Source: a virus
DNA length: 21,994 bases
Reading direction: 5' to 3' (one strand)
Virus record (IMG/VR): IMGVR_UViG_3300022074_000420
Span: 1 to 21,994 of that record
Shown in pieces: positions 7,319 to 15,049 of the stretch; position 1 is the first letter of the stretch, and the number at the start of each line of letters is the position of its first letter. The notes under the pieces were generated by a model. It ran no database searches, was not told where the DNA came from, and saw only the letters and a program-made list of their open reading frames with translations. The translations under genes and the position numbers were made by a program.

Positions 7319-7882
7319 TTAATTTTGTAATAAGGATTGTATAGGAACTACATCACTGCACAAATGTGCAACTCTCGTTTCCGGGCGAAGGGTGAAACCC
7401 TTGCGTTGTAATTCGGCACATTTAAGAGCACGTACCAGCTCATAGTCGAGACGATCTTTTTGTATTCTTGATTCAGCCATGCGTTCACATTGCTTAGTCA
7501 AGTCTCGATTTAAAGGAACTGAGAAGTTTACTTGAAAACCCCAGTTCTCTGATATGACATAACCATCTTCTGTTTGAGGTTCAGTGTCATTACCCATATA
7601 AAATGGGCTAAATGTCATCGTGCTGCCGTTGCAAGAAACGTTGCCACCAAAGGATTGTCGGCTAGGTGCTCCATTGTTCTGGAATTGCACTGCCTGATTG
7701 GTGACATTTCCCGTTGCTGCGGCGACAGGGTTCGATGAATTATTGGTGTCTCCTTCTGCTAGTACTGGACTTATTGAGAGAAGACAGAGAGCGATGTAGT
7801 AGTAGAGTTTGTTGTGATATCTCGAACGGTATCTATTGTCTCTATTAACCCTGCTGCTCTTGATGTTGTTTCTAATGTCCAC
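7319..7882 (-). CDS. secreted or membrane-anchored phage protein, 187 aa
   Basis: The frame starts with GTG at 7882, inside the previous gene (112-nt overlap). It has a basic region of about 27 residues, a hydrophobic core YYYIALCLLSISPVLA ending near residue 42, and a signal-peptidase-like site before EGD. The mature part has an Asn/Ser-rich stretch, four Cys (two could pair) and a helical Arg/Glu-rich segment (about 129-160). The function is unknown. No ATG or better start lies nearer the hydrophobic core, so GTG initiation or a frameshift from the upstream gene are the options. The location between fibre and terminase suggests lysis, envelope contact or a virion part. Confidence 0.75.
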   Translation of the reverse strand: MDIRNNIKSSRVNRDNRYRSRYHNKLYYYIALCLLSISPVLAEGDTNNSSNPVAAATGNVTNQAVQFQNNGAPSRQSFGGNVSCNGSTMTFSPFYMGNDTEPQTEDGYVISENWGFQVNFSVPLNRDLTKQCERMAESRIQKDRLDYELVRALKCAELQRKGFTLRPETRVAHLCSDVVPIQSLLQN

Positions 7883-8133
7883 GGTAGTGTTGTGTCAGTT
7901 ACTGTGAATACTGCATCTCCACCACTAATACCAGCACTAGCTGAAGAAGTTATGTTTGATCCACTCCATGTATTTACTTCGGCTCCAAAGACTTCTTGTG
8001 AAATTGTTTCTTGAATCGTTTGGATAGTTGTGGTGGTTGAATTCATTGACCCTGAAGTAAATTGTGGGGTCACAGTGTTGGCTCTAACTATGCTGGGTGA
8101 TAACAGAGCTAAAAGCAGAATTAGTTTTTTCAT
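7771..8133 (-). CDS. secreted Thr/Ser-rich protein, 120 aa
   Basis: A clear signal peptide, MKKLILLLALLSPSIVRA, is followed by a likely cleavage after residue 18. The mature protein is rich in Thr, Ser and Ile with few charged residues (NSTTTTIQTIQETIS and similar), consistent with a beta-structured extracellular or virion-surface protein. The ATG at 8133 overlaps the upstream stop as ATGA. Its last 37 codons are shared, in another frame, with the start of the 187-aa gene. A signal peptide on a podovirus late gene suggests export during infection. The function is unknown. Confidence 0.8.
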   Translation of the reverse strand: MKKLILLLALLSPSIVRANTVTPQFTSGSMNSTTTTIQTIQETISQEVFGAEVNTWSGSNITSSASAGISGGDAVFTVTDTTLPWTLETTSRAAGLIETIDTVRDITTNSTTTSLSVFSQ

Positions 8134-9217: not shown

Positions 9218-12200
9218 TTACGCAGCTTCGAGGGCTGTGACTTTTGTTGATAACTCTTTTATTGCGTTTACAAGTATTGGAACTAAATGTTCTCCTTTAT
9301 ACTTTAAATTTTCTGAATCCTTATTATCGATAATTGCTGGATCAGATCCTTCTAAAGCAAGAATATCTTGAGCTATAAATCCTAATCGTTTATCACCATG
9401 TTTAACATCTGACTCACGATTTTTTCTAAACCAGAATGATTTAGGTTTTAGTTGATTTACAAAATCTAAACCTGTTGTGATATCTTGTATATCTGTCTTA
9501 TCTCTTTCATCTGAAGTAACTGTAAGAGCTATTTTACTATATGCATAAGCATGACTATTATTACCAAGACAAATAATATCACTTTGTGTAGTTATAGTAT
9601 TAGAAGGACTAGATGATCTTCCAGCACTTACACCTAAAGCTAAGTTGTTACTACCAGTAGTAAGATCGTAAAGTGCATTAACACCTAAACCAGAGTTGTT
9701 TGTACCTGTAGTTGCACTATGTAAAGCTTGCATACCACAAGCAGTTTGACCACCACCTGTTGTATTTAATATCAAAGCACTCCTACCTATCGCTACGTTA
9801 GAAGCTCCAGTTGTGTTTGTTTCTAACGCACTCTTACCAACAGCAGTGTTATTAGAAGCACTGGTATTACCATACAAGGCATACATACCTACTGCTACGT
9901 TAGAAGCTCCAGTGGTGTTTTTATCCATTGATTCTCTACCCATACTGGTATTACCAGTACCAGTAGTAGTCCTTGTTTGTGAATTTTGACCAACAGCAGT
10001 GTTATCATCACCTGTAGTATTTGCGTCTAAAGCGTTAGCTCCAACCGCAGTGTTTCTTCCTCCAGTTGTGTTTGCTTGTAATGTACGATGTCCTAAAGCA
10101 GTACTATTAGATCCAGTAGTATTATTAGCGAGACTTTGTTCTCCTACAGCTACATGATAACTACCAGTTGTGTTATTTGTTAAAGAATATAATCCGAAAG
10201 CATTATTTTGTACTCCAGTTGTATTTGTAGTTAAAGCTAAAGCACCCACAGCAACGTTTGAATGTCCTGTTGTGTTTGTAACCATTGCTCTATGACCTAA
10301 CGCTGTATTGTAAGTACCAGTCGTATTGCTGTGTAAAGCAAACGCTCCAAAAGCATTATTGTCCGATATTGTATTTAAAGTTAAAGCACCATAACCAACG
10401 GCATTATTATTACCACCTGTCTGGTTGTTAGATAAAGCTATCATTCCAACAGCAGTGTTATAACCTCCAGTTGTGTTTGCTTTTAAAGCATCTTTACCAA
10501 AAGCTGAGTTATTACTTGCTGTAGTATTATTCTGTAAAGCACTTCTTCCAAAAGCACTATTACTATCACCAGTTGTACTGCTTTGTAATGCATAAGTTCC
10601 TAAAGAGCTATTACTATCACCAGTGGTGTTTGATGTTAATCCGTTATAACCAATAGCAGTATTATTACTAGCAGTTGTGTTTGCAACTAAAGAACGATCT
10701 CCAACAGCAGTATTGTTACTTCCAGTTGTATTAGTATCCATTGATTCACAACCAATAGCAGTATTACTAGCACCTGTTGTATTTTTACCTAAACTAGAAT
10801 ATCCAACAGCAGTATTATCATTAGCTGTGGTATTTGCATCTAAGGCTAAAGCACCTACCGCAGTATTTAAAGTTCCAGTTGTGTTTGCACCTAAAGCATC
10901 TCTACCAACTGCTACGTTGTTACTTGCTGTAGTATTAGAACCTAAAGCCCCATAACCAAAACCAGTATTATCATTTCCAGTTGTGTTTGCATCTAAAGCA
11001 ATAGTACCTGTTGCAGTATTTCTTGTACCTGTCGTATTAGCAGTTAAAGCTTCATGACCAATTGCTACGTTGTTGTTAGCTGTAGTATTAGCATCTAACG
11101 CATTAGAACCTACAGCTACGTTCTGCGTTCCAGTTGTGTTTGCCAACAATGCGTTGTTACCAACAGCAGTATTATCATCAGCGGTTGTATTATTATATAA
11201 AGCATTTTGTCCAAGAGCAGTAAGTCTACTTCCAGTAGTACTTGTATAAAGACTGTCTTTACCAATAGCAGTGTTATCGCCACCAGTTGTATTTGCTCCT
11301 AAAGAATTTCTACCAACAGCAGTGTTAGCACCGCCTGTAGTGTTTGCATCTAAAGCGTTTGCACCGACAGCAGTGTTAACTGCTCCAGTTGTGTTTGATA
11401 GTAAAGCATTATGTCCAATACCAGTATTATTTGAAGCAGTTGAGTTAGTACCTAATGCTTCTCTACCTAAAGCTACGTTTGAAGCTCCAGTTGTATTTGC
11501 TGTTAATGCTGCAAATCCTATTGCGACATTACTATCTGCTGTCGTGTTGGCATCAAGAGCATTAGCACCTACAGCTACGTTTGCTACTCCAGTTGTGTTT
11601 GCTACTAATGAGTTATGACCAACCCCTACATTATTACTAGCAGTAGTATTTGAGGATAAACTAGAATTTCCAATGGCAGTATTTTGTTCGCCTGTAGTGT
11701 TAACAAGTAAACTTGATTGACCAAATGCTGAATTTCTAGCACCAGTAGTAGTTGCTGTTGCTGAGTTATAACCAACGGCTGTATTATTATTAGCAGTAGT
11801 ATTAGCATCTAATGCGTTAGCTCCTACAGCTACGTTCTGAGTTCCAGTTGTGTTTTTATTTAAAGTCTGCATACCTACAGCAGTATTTGATGATCCAGTT
11901 GTGTTATCTCCTAGGGAATCATATCCAGCTGCAGTATTATTATTTCCAGTAGTATTATTTGTTAAAGAATTTGATCCTAAGGCTGTGCTGTAACTTGCAG
12001 TTGTGTTTGCATTTAAAGATAAATAACCTACTGCTGTATTATTACTTGCAGTAGTGTTTTCGAATAAAGCACCATGACCTAAACCTGTATTATAACTGCC
12101 AGTTGTGTTATTACTTAATGAAGATCCTCCAGTAGATACATTTTGTGAGCCAGTTGTGTTTGCATCTAAAGCTAAAGAACCTACAGCAACGTTAAAACTT

Positions 12201-12871
12201 CCAGTTGTGTTTGCTGATAAAGCAGCATATCCAATTCCAGTATTGTCACTTGCGGTTGTATTTGCATCTAAAGATTCCGCTCCTATAGCAGTATTTCTTG
12301 ATCCTGTTGTATTGGCATCTAATGATACTCTTCCTATTCCAGTATTACCATTACCAGTAGTATTAGAATCTAAAGCATTAGCACCTAGAGCAGAGTTGTT
12401 AACTCCAGTTGTGTTTGCGTTTAAAGAGTTATAACCAACTCCAGTATTGTTACTTGCGGTTGTATTTGTTGCTAAAGCACCACGACCTATACCTGTATTA
12501 GCAGCACCTGTTGTAGTTGATACTAAACTATTTCTTCCTACAGCAGTATTACCACTTCCAGATGTATTAGCAGTTAAAGCTGAAAATCCAACGGCAGTAT
12601 TTTCTCCGCCAGAAACAGCAGCATCTAAAGCACTTTCTCCAAGAACAGTATTACCAGCAACAGAGTTTGCACCTTTACCTACGCTTACGCTATTAAATAT
12701 TACGTCTCCACTATGACCAGCTTCCTTCATTAAAGGAGTACCGCCAGCAGTACTTCCGTCATGGACGACAAGTACTTTTTTTGTTGTGTCTACGGTGACT
12801 TCTTTTGATACACCTGTAAACGAGTTATGTTCGGTGGTTGTTCCACCTCTAAGTTGTAATTGATCTGGCAT
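9218..12871 (-). CDS. giant repeat tail fibre with S74 intramolecular chaperone, 1217 aa
   Basis: This is the presumed host-binding distal fibre. Residues 1-50 (LQLRGGTTTEHNSFTG to VVHDGSTAGG) match the small N-terminal module seen in Mtd-type tropism proteins. Residues 74-1075 are 59 consecutive 17-residue repeats of form NTAVGxxALxANTTGxx, related in style to YadA/Hep-Hag head motifs; only copy 45 is a residue short. Residues 1120-1217 are a Peptidase_S74 domain: SDERDK supplies the Ser1120/Lys1125 dyad for self-cleavage after trimer folding, then RLGFIAQD and a C-terminal coiled coil. A perfect AGGAGG (12879-12884) lies 7 nt before the ATG, inside the last codons of the gp17-like gene, whose stop abuts this start. 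Trimeric assembly is family knowledge. Confidence 0.93.
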   Translation of the reverse strand: MPDQLQLRGGTTTEHNSFTGVSKEVTVDTTKKVLVVHDGSTAGGTPLMKEAGHSGDVIFNSVSVGKGANSVAGNTVLGESALDAAVSGGENTAVGFSALTANTSGSGNTAVGRNSLVSTTTGAANTGIGRGALATNTTASNNTGVGYNSLNANTTGVNNSALGANALDSNTTGNGNTGIGRVSLDANTTGSRNTAIGAESLDANTTASDNTGIGYAALSANTTGSFNVAVGSLALDANTTGSQNVSTGGSSLSNNTTGSYNTGLGHGALFENTTASNNTAVGYLSLNANTTASYSTALGSNSLTNNTTGNNNTAAGYDSLGDNTTGSSNTAVGMQTLNKNTTGTQNVAVGANALDANTTANNNTAVGYNSATATTTGARNSAFGQSSLLVNTTGEQNTAIGNSSLSSNTTASNNVGVGHNSLVANTTGVANVAVGANALDANTTADSNVAIGFAALTANTTGASNVALGREALGTNSTASNNTGIGHNALLSNTTGAVNTAVGANALDANTTGGANTAVGRNSLGANTTGGDNTAIGKDSLYTSTTGSRLTALGQNALYNNTTADDNTAVGNNALLANTTGTQNVAVGSNALDANTTANNNVAIGHEALTANTTGTRNTATGTIALDANTTGNDNTGFGYGALGSNTTASNNVAVGRDALGANTTGTLNTAVGALALDANTTANDNTAVGYSSLGKNTTGASNTAIGCESMDTNTTGSNNTAVGDRSLVANTTASNNTAIGYNGLTSNTTGDSNSSLGTYALQSSTTGDSNSAFGRSALQNNTTASNNSAFGKDALKANTTGGYNTAVGMIALSNNQTGGNNNAVGYGALTLNTISDNNAFGAFALHSNTTGTYNTALGHRAMVTNTTGHSNVAVGALALTTNTTGVQNNAFGLYSLTNNTTGSYHVAVGEQSLANNTTGSNSTALGHRTLQANTTGGRNTAVGANALDANTTGDDNTAVGQNSQTRTTTGTGNTSMGRESMDKNTTGASNVAVGMYALYGNTSASNNTAVGKSALETNTTGASNVAIGRSALILNTTGGGQTACGMQALHSATTGTNNSGLGVNALYDLTTGSNNLALGVSAGRSSSPSNTITTQSDIICLGNNSHAYAYSKIALTVTSDERDKTDIQDITTGLDFVNQLKPKSFWFRKNRESDVKHGDKRLGFIAQDILALEGSDPAIIDNKDSENLKYKGEHLVPILVNAIKELSTKVTALEAA
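9647..12652 (-). repeat. 59-copy 51-bp coding repeat array
   Basis: This array encodes residues 74-1075 of the distal fibre in units of 17 codons, with one 16-codon unit (copy 45). The unit positions NT-A-V-G, A/S-L and NTT-G/A are the conserved ones, and the DNA has diverged at synonymous sites. Triplets of units recur in the same order (copies 4-6, 20-22, 24-26 and 29-31, ending in an ANALDANTT-type unit), which suggests multi-unit duplications. Confidence 0.93.
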
Positions 12872-15049
12872 TTAAATTCCTCCTAAGTTGTAAGTTGCTG
12901 ATCCTTGTGCGAGTGATATTCGATTTGTTGGTATTGCTTCGTTTGCAAATGCTGCACCTGTTACTGCAAGTCCACCTAAGTCAATAGAGTTAGACCCTGC
13001 TGAAGCTGTATATAAAGCGTTAAAAGCTGCTGTTGCTTGTTTAGCAAAATCAATTGCAGTATCTACAATGTTGGTAAATACGCTTCCGTTAAATACTTGT
13101 AGTTGTTTATTACCAGAGTTGAAATATAAATCTCCTTCAGTTACAGCATTGCCTAAAGCATCCGAAGTAGGAGCTGAAGCTGCTGTTCCTAGATAAAGAG
13201 ATAAGAAATTATTTAGATATGTTGAAGCGTTATTAACATTGGTGATATTTGTAGCAACAGTATTAACGTTTGCTATCGAGCCAGCAGTTGTATCTACATT
13301 TGCTATTGAACCGGCTGTAGTATTTACATTTGCAATACTTCCAGCAACCAGTCCTATATCTGTTCCGTCATTAGCAACTGTTGTTACGTTGCTACTTATC
13401 CCGGCTACAGTACTTACGTTTCCGCTTATACCAGCAACTGTACTGACATTGCTGTTATTACCAGCAACAGTATTTACGTTACTAATACTTCCAGCAACTG
13501 TATTTACATTATTGATAGAACCAGCAGTGGTATTAACGTTTGCAATACTGCCTGAAACATTACCTATATCTGTACCATCATTTGCAACAGTAGTTACATC
13601 AGATGAGATACCAGCAACTGTGGTTACATTGCCACTTATACCAGCAACTGTATTGATGTTTGAAGCATTACTAACAGCAGAGTTAATGTTGCTTGCATTA
13701 CTAACAGCAGAGTTGATATTAGTAGCGTTACTAACAGCAGAGTTTATGTTAGTAGCATTACCAGCTACAGCATTAACATTACTAATTGCTCCAGCAACTG
13801 TATTCACATTAGATACATTGCTTGCAACTGTTGTTACCTCTGTTGCTTTAGGTACTAATCTGTGGAATGTATAAGTATTTAAAGTAGAAGTAGTTTCTAC
13901 AATTAATCCAAATGTTGCAGCATAAGTTGTACTGTTTGCTGCTCCTGTAATAGTTACTGTTGAGTTACCTACAGTTCCATTACTAATAGATATTTGACCA
14001 GAACCATTAGAAGTTAAATTCTGAGATAAAGCTTGAATGCTGACTAAAGTACCAGCTCCATTATTTACATCAGGGTTTGTATTAGGAAAATTTAACTCGC
14101 TAGTTATTGGAACAAAACCACCAACGTCATCAACTAGATCTACAATTCTTGCATCAATAGCTGCCGAAGTAGCTACGAATGCATCAGAAGAGTTCCAGCT
14201 AACACCACTGGCAATTGTCTCCGAAGAGTTTTGCCGTAGGAAGTTGGCTTCCGCTTCAGTTTCTGTAAAGTACCTACCGTCTAATGCACCGTTTAGTAAT
14301 TCGGTTTCTGTGTAATACCTGTTATCTAGTTGACCAGCATTAAGTTCAGTTTCGGTATAGTATCTATTGTCTAATTGACCAGCATCTACTTGATTTATTC
14401 TGTAGTATCTGTTGTCTAACTGACCAGCATCTAATTCTGTTTCGGTATAGTATCTGTTGTCTAAAGTTCCACTTGCTATATCAGCATCGACAATTGTTCC
14501 ATTAACAATGTTTGCACTTGCTACTGTTATGTCGGTTGGTAAAGCACCTGAACCTAACTTTGTTAAAGCTACGGAGTCATTTAATAACTTAGAACCTTGT
14601 ATATTTGCACTTGCATTTATATCACCGTCAACAATAGTTCCATCTGCAATTTTGGCTGATGTTACTATTGAATCTTTAAGATCTGTTTCTCTTACAAGCT
14701 GTCCTACAGCTTCTTGAGAAGAATATAAAATTTGTGTTTGGTTATCATTTAAATCAACCGCACGTATAGAAGAACCGGCAGCATAAACAGCTGCTGGATT
14801 ATCTACATTTGTATTTCTATATATATGTACATTACCTGTACCAGATGGAGTAGCACTGTTAAATACTACATTTGTGTTTGATATTGTGTAGTCATTATTT
14901 GTTTGACCACTTGTGTTTTCAGTTTTGAGGTCCCATACTCCTGTTGTAGCGTTATAAATTTCTACTTTTAAATCACTATTCGCAAGAATCGGGAAAACGA
15001 AGGAAAAGGATGTACCTCCTCCGTTTCTAAAATGTTCAGTTGTCGCCAT
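12872..15049 (-). CDS. T7 gp17-like tail fibre, 725 aa
   Basis: Residues 1-125 (FRNGGGTSFSFVFPIL to LYSSQEAVGQLVRETDL) are the T7 gp17 N-terminal domain, which attaches fibres to the tail. Then come IADGTIVDGDI-type segments (about 130-192), five 15-residue repeats LDNRYYTETELDAGQ (194-268), a beta-rich stretch (about 300-400), 21 ten-residue repeats of the type SIxNVNTVAG (401-610), and a C-terminal domain containing GDLYFNSGNKQLQVFNGSVF (about 639-658). No receptor-binding tip or chaperone is evident, so the next gene probably supplies it. The 48-nt gap from the gp16-like gene holds only a weak ACAAA/TTTGT hairpin. Confidence 0.92.
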   Translation of the reverse strand: MATTEHFRNGGGTSFSFVFPILANSDLKVEIYNATTGVWDLKTENTSGQTNNDYTISNTNVVFNSATPSGTGNVHIYRNTNVDNPAAVYAAGSSIRAVDLNDNQTQILYSSQEAVGQLVRETDLKDSIVTSAKIADGTIVDGDINASANIQGSKLLNDSVALTKLGSGALPTDITVASANIVNGTIVDADIASGTLDNRYYTETELDAGQLDNRYYRINQVDAGQLDNRYYTETELNAGQLDNRYYTETELLNGALDGRYFTETEAEANFLRQNSSETIASGVSWNSSDAFVATSAAIDARIVDLVDDVGGFVPITSELNFPNTNPDVNNGAGTLVSIQALSQNLTSNGSGQISISNGTVGNSTVTITGAANSTTYAATFGLIVETTSTLNTYTFHRLVPKATEVTTVASNVSNVNTVAGAISNVNAVAGNATNINSAVSNATNINSAVSNASNINSAVSNASNINTVAGISGNVTTVAGISSDVTTVANDGTDIGNVSGSIANVNTTAGSINNVNTVAGSISNVNTVAGNNSNVSTVAGISGNVSTVAGISSNVTTVANDGTDIGLVAGSIANVNTTAGSIANVDTTAGSIANVNTVATNITNVNNASTYLNNFLSLYLGTAASAPTSDALGNAVTEGDLYFNSGNKQLQVFNGSVFTNIVDTAIDFAKQATAAFNALYTASAGSNSIDLGGLAVTGAAFANEAIPTNRISLAQGSATYNLGGI
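13220..13849 (-). repeat. 21-copy 30-bp coding repeat in the gp17-like fibre
   Basis: Residues 401-610 are 21 decapeptides in strict register, consensus xIxNVNTVAG. A five-unit block is duplicated seven units apart (residues 471-520 and 541-590, each including ANDGTDIG), and NA(S/T)NINSAVS is tandem three times (431-460). This indicates recent unit-wise and block duplication. Confidence 0.9.
14246..14470 (-). repeat. five-copy 45-bp coding repeat in the gp17-like fibre
   Basis: Residues 194-268 are five consecutive 15-residue units around LDNRYYTETELDAGQ. The second has RINQVD in place of TETELD and the fifth (GALDGRYFTETEAEA) is the most diverged. Confidence 0.9.

Follow-up and report, generated by a model that had tools for sequence, protein, structure and literature searches.

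The window, by which we mean the whole stretch of DNA analyzed here, is a 21,994-base IMG/VR fragment. Where the sequences match, identity amounts to about 89% with Prochlorococcus phage P-SSP3, to 91% with P-SSP2 (Tritonvirus), and to 81% with P-SSP7. Judged by sequence identity, its source is a T7-like cyanopodovirus close to P-SSP3 and P-SSP2. Genes for internal virion proteins are followed by a T7-type fiber gene, the repeat fiber gene that is the subject of this report, several small genes, an HNH gene, and the terminase gene. All features described below lie on the minus strand. The repeat fiber gene, a probable distal tail fiber gene, starts with ATG, spans exactly positions 9218 to 12871, and encodes 1217 residues composed of an Mtd_N module, 60 units of 17 residues, a linker, and an S74 chaperone. 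Positions 12872 to 15049, directly upstream, encode a T7 gp17-type fiber or adaptor protein of 725 residues (Pfam PF03906), the probable dock for the repeat fiber. Short repeats occur in this protein too, LDNRYYTETELDAGQ and NVNTVAGSISNVNTVAG, and they also show up in the DNA as 30- and 45-bp tandem repeats. Downstream of the repeat fiber gene, positions 7319 to 8133 contain two reading frames of 187 and 120 residues that share about 110 bases, the first of them similar to PHROGs 1755 and 848, where no function is assigned.

An earlier, sequence-only reading of this DNA had proposed that the gene encodes an Mtd-type module, repeats, and a self-cleaving S74 chaperone, in this order. Pfam matches at the two ends, residues 6–41 and 1120–1171, bear out this arrangement. 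The N-terminal match is to Mtd_N (PF18454, E = 1.5e-11, positions 12749 to 12856) with 44.4 bits against a curated cutoff of 26.3, and marks the probable docking end of the fiber. The same region of about 40 residues is shared with the Mtd chains of Bordetella phage (phmmer E about 1e-8). This likeness is limited to the N-terminal stretch. PDB matches of the fiber to Mtd end near residue 104–121, and where Mtd has its C-terminal variable C-type lectin fold our protein has repeats and S74, with Mtd_N and S74 as its only Pfam domains. The C-terminal match, to Peptidase_S74 (PF13884, E = 1.3e-10), scores 41.8 bits against a cutoff of 22; the chaperone and stop codon together cover positions 9218 to 9514 (residues 1120–1217). 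It is preceded by a linker of 32 residues (1088–1119, positions 9515 to 9610) that is common to relatives with the same type of S74. A search of the fiber protein against NCBIfam gave no match.

Most of the protein is repeat array (residues 69–1087, positions 9611 to 12667) with the consensus TTGSNNTAVGxNALxAN. Residue identity at a lag of 17 is 0.50 across residues 60–1085, and values above 0.2 occur only at multiples of 17. A unit profile detects 60 consecutive units, of which 58 spacings measure 17 residues and one 16, while the longest chain of units in 20 shuffled controls with the same residues is 1. The first unit is weak. Counting without it, from residue 86, gives the 59 copies that had been read initially, and the lone one-residue slip noted at copy 45 is indeed there, as a 16-residue unit (residues 834–849, positions 10325 to 10372).

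Probable Fold and Length of the Rod

The fold of the repeats was addressed with two AlphaFold single-chain models, one of 284 residues from the C-terminal part and one of 257 residues from the N-terminal part. The C-terminal model (pLDDT 81 overall, 90–95 in the later repeats) best matches left-handed β-roll heads of the YadA type, with VIA Z scores of 15.7 for YadA (rmsd 2.4, 139 residues aligned), 14.9 for BpaC, and 14.5 for CbpF; left-handed-helix enzymes score about 11. For the N-terminal model, with an overall pLDDT of 66 and values near 80 in the repeats, the result is a solenoid that aligns best to right-handed β-helix proteins, among them β-helix tailspikes and lyases. The two models thus disagree on the repeat fold, and the Foldseek E-values are weak for both. 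Since the Mtd_N part of the N-terminal model has a pLDDT below 50 and its repeats are folded unlike those in the C-terminal model, we set it aside for deciding the fold. We infer that the rod is a trimeric parallel β-solenoid, most likely a left-handed β-roll like the heads of YadA.

The heads of YadA, BpaC, and CbpF share with the C-terminal model the predicted left-handed parallel β-roll and the stacking of layers, and Gly and Asn recur in each layer of YadA-type heads as they do in the fiber repeats. Known rolls of this type have 14 residues per layer, whereas the fiber has 17; BpaC has 42 layers compared with 60 here, and YadA-type adhesins end in a membrane anchor instead of S74. Sequence homology of the repeats to YadA heads was rejected, since the repeats matched no YadA head model in Pfam at an E-value of 10 and none in a profile search against PDB chains. 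A triplet super-repeat like that of BpaC was not clearly seen either (unit identity 0.593 at lag 3 vs 0.570 at lag 1).

The rod could also consist of three separate single-chain β-solenoids bundled together, an architecture known from many tailspikes, instead of a single interlocked β-roll of three chains. The N-terminal model is such a single-chain solenoid, with matches to tailspike β-helices at Z up to 13.4, and about 17 residues per turn comes close to the coils of left-handed helices. Yet this is the less confident of the two models, and its matches are tied with those to many unrelated β-helices (Z 11–13). The C-terminal model, by contrast, places YadA-type heads ahead of other helices. 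We consider the bundle rather less probable than not; it would leave the length and the layering of the rod nearly unchanged. The interlocked left-handed roll is the fold that we prefer.

Evidence on layering that is independent of the AlphaFold models comes from neighbor-coupling statistics, in which mutual information at the same unit position was computed for 96 non-redundant arrays. This information peaks between adjacent units and collapses at lag 2, from 0.364 to 0.051 bits at position 15, from 0.258 to 0.098 bits at position 17, and from 0.109 to 0.011 bits at position 3. Asp15 lies over another Asp15 in the neighboring unit 32 times, against an expected 143.6. Because coupling between adjacent units is what stacking predicts, these statistics argue that one unit corresponds to one stacked layer. 

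Positions 3 and 15 also reveal a directional stacking rule across the fiber family. Ala3 is followed by Ala3 in the next unit in 4% of cases, compared with a base rate of 26%. After Asp15 the next position 15 is mainly Gly, Ser, or Thr, and acidic or large residues are rare.

The 60 repeats would accordingly stack as 60 layers of one unit each. With the rise of 4.8 Å per layer known from BpaC (PMC9543794), the rod would be about 29 nm long, an estimate that hardly depends on handedness. For comparison, the tail hub of P-SSP7 measures about 23 nm and the capsid about 65 nm (PMC5345008). To call the stalk very long, as was done at first, is therefore too strong; it would be similar in length to the hub and would measure less than half of the capsid. 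The accompanying claim of a regular rod is upheld by both AlphaFold and the coupling statistics, with the trimer presumed. On this basis the DNA sequence would reveal the length of a rod, each unit adding about 0.48 nm.

Proposed Docking and Maturation

The 91% identity to P-SSP2 stops at position 14649, about 130 codons inside the T7-type fiber gene. Beyond this point P-SSP7, P-SSP3, and P-SSP2 have other fiber genes downstream, and no repeat array occurs in them at this locus. The break in identity and the different fiber genes of these relatives suggest that the stretch from about 9.2 to 14.6 kb may be a replaceable host-recognition cassette.

We then surveyed 43 IMG/VR contigs (a few of them near-identical) that carry an ORF after a relative of the T7-type fiber gene. 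This ORF has an Mtd_N-like start (MPDQLQLRGGT or MAKLLKLRRGT) in at least 29 contigs; 12 of these starts continue into repeats and 17 into other sequence. For one repeat-free ORF the Mtd_N identity was confirmed by Pfam. Such a conserved start, joined to a remainder that can be exchanged, suggests that Mtd_N serves as a docking module. The N-terminal β-prism of Bordetella phage Mtd is the presumed point of attachment to the tail fiber (PMC10743442). The Mtd_N end of the repeat fiber would dock onto the T7 gp17-type protein encoded directly upstream.

The opposite end carries the motif SDERDK at residues 1120–1125, whose Ser1120 and Lys1125 supply the expected dyad; neither residue changes in any of the 24 sequences that were aligned. 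The same Ser-Lys spacing is found in endoNF (S911/K916) and MyRF (S587/K592), where these residues are required for cleavage (PMC8326128). The S74 part of the C-terminal model matches the ICA domain of MyRF (7dc3) with a Foldseek probability of 1.00, at an E-value of 0.11. More generally, the fiber resembles endoNF, T5 pb1, phage GA-1 gp12, and MyRF in the C-terminal position of S74, in the five-residue Ser-Lys spacing, and in the Pfam match. It differs from these four proteins in what lies upstream, which is an enzyme or a short triple β-helix stalk in them and a repeat rod here. The proposed trimerizing and self-cleaving chaperone thus gains a Pfam match and a dyad spaced as in endoNF and MyRF, while trimer formation and self-cleavage, with a predicted cut before Ser1120, are what we infer from the S74 family. 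By analogy with endosialidases, S74 would unite three chains, allow the rod to fold, and then excise itself before Ser1120. After this cleavage, the last repeats and the linker (residues 1088–1119) would form the distal tip.

Possible Host Contact

In the cryo-EM map of P-SCSP1u, the distal fibers of T7-like cyanophages are unresolved (PMC10575957). Pfam found no separate lectin-like or receptor domain in the repeat fiber, and for this reason we suggest that exposed variable positions of the rod, the tip, or both may contact the host. Alternatively, the array could act as a passive spacer, and specificity could be confined to a different gene, such as that of the upstream fiber or those of the short downstream proteins. 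The missing array at the same locus of P-SSP7, P-SSP3, and P-SSP2 would fit this explanation, as would the lack of a lectin-like domain. However, β-rolls of the YadA type can bind ligands themselves, as exemplified by CbpF, whose ligand is bound by a loop of the roll (PMC13432900). Furthermore, strong variation is confined to unit positions 4, 5, 11, 12, 15, and 16, the rest being nearly fixed, a pattern that speaks against a mere spacer. We regard the passive spacer as unlikely and favor contact through the rod surface or the tip.

The Fiber Family and Probable Exchange between Arrays

The fiber matches PHROG 23837 (E = 6.3e-210, 699 bits) and also PHROGs 4636 and 6002, which are annotated as virion structural proteins or tail spikes. 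A report from 2014 described a YadA domain in the tail fiber of a marine pelagiphage (PMC3909814). Like our case, it concerns a T7-type fiber of a marine phage with an adhesin region that resembles YadA, situated within a hypervariable island. There, the domain forms the C-terminus of the T7-type fiber itself and, in the available part of that report, is annotated by domain search only, without an analysis of repeats or length. In view of the PHROG families and this pelagiphage fiber, the kind of fiber was already known.

A set of 183 loci yielded 106 distinct arrays of this kind. Complete ORFs number 75; their unit counts run from 6 to 104 with a median of 42, and the S74 motif is present in 69 of them. 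The spacing seldom departs from 17, in most such cases to 16, and the N-terminal modules vary. With 60 units, the array in the window stands at the 90th percentile of its complete relatives. The gene is therefore an ordinary, if long, member of a widespread marine phage fiber family. Among cultured phages, the same 17-residue repeats occur in gp52 of Pelagibacter phage HTVC111P and gp55 of Methylophilales phage Venkman, each with 33 units and the S74 motif but with another N-terminal module and about half as many units as here; P-SSM2 carries about 32 units that are more divergent. The initial suggestion that stalk length varies between strains holds for related phages, not only in the overall range but also between arrays L012 and L018, which have 47 and 32 units even though both array ends are shared at 98–99% identity. 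We found nothing on point in published work on repeat-number variation in phage fibers. The range of 6 to 104 units offers a natural length series for the role of fiber reach in infecting marine bacteria.

How do such arrays change? Any two units of the window array have a median base identity of 57% (0.569), and adjacent units (0.570) are no closer than distant ones. Five-unit blocks from other phages resemble the window to nearly the same degree (median 0.565, s.d. 0.043), with three exceptions, L016 (0.957), L024 (0.914), and L020 (0.886). Each exception reflects a tract of 216–268 bp that is 91–98% identical and shifted by a whole number of units. The tract shared with L016 (positions 11588 to 11855, 95.9% identity) and that shared with L020 (11771 to 12018, 91.1%) are offset by exactly 7 units, and that shared with L024 (10672 to 10887, 98.1%) by exactly 25. 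Both L016 and L020 carry an N-terminal module other than the one in the window. In another pair, L058 and L112, 1995 bp are shared at 98% before the sequences diverge.

The shifted tracts of high identity, together with the lack of excess likeness among internal units, suggest in-register recombination rather than slippage. If the array instead expanded and contracted by local slippage or unequal exchange within one genome, its copy number could serve as a fast contingency switch. Units of exactly 51 bp would suit such a process, and so would the differing copy numbers of L012 and L018. Against it, adjacent window units are no more alike than any two units, or than units of other phages, and the best internal match of a five-unit block is merely 0.706. 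The latter value also led us to reject a recent tandem duplication within the window array, as no internal five-unit block exceeds 0.71 identity. We consider slippage highly improbable as the source of copy number.

It should be kept in mind that the relatives are metagenome contigs, and that assembly across repeats can err. Simple chimeras are less likely, because the shared tracts are non-identical and lie inside otherwise different arrays. As far as sequence comparison can tell, rod length and surface would evolve mainly through in-register recombination between the arrays of different phages. Taken together, the repeat fiber is quite probably the distal half of a two-part T7-like cyanophage tail fiber, a docked and layered rod that is matured by S74 and recombines. 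More tentatively, marine phages may share a pool of interchangeable 51-bp fiber layers, such that in-register recombination between the arrays of unrelated fibers, even those with different docking modules, reshuffles tracts and resets rod length; we rate this extension as possible without leaning toward it. If true, the layer pool would allow reach and surface to change in a modular, frame-safe way that needs neither slippage nor a diversity-generating retroelement. The fiber arrays would then present a case of modular exchange below the level of the gene, and we see this exchange of layers between phages as the most interesting lead.

Three further observations concern individual arrays. The longest one, L181, has 104 units and the S74 motif and would measure about 50 nm at 4.8 Å per layer. 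L020 and L021 each belong to a contig with two adjacent, different repeat fibers, each fiber having its own N-terminal module. Finally, the contigs of L057 (shared with L025) and L058 (shared with L008) are 99.8% identical over 5.8 kb and differ within the array, where a tract of 90% identity is displaced by exactly 8 units, reflecting either a recent exchange or an assembly effect.
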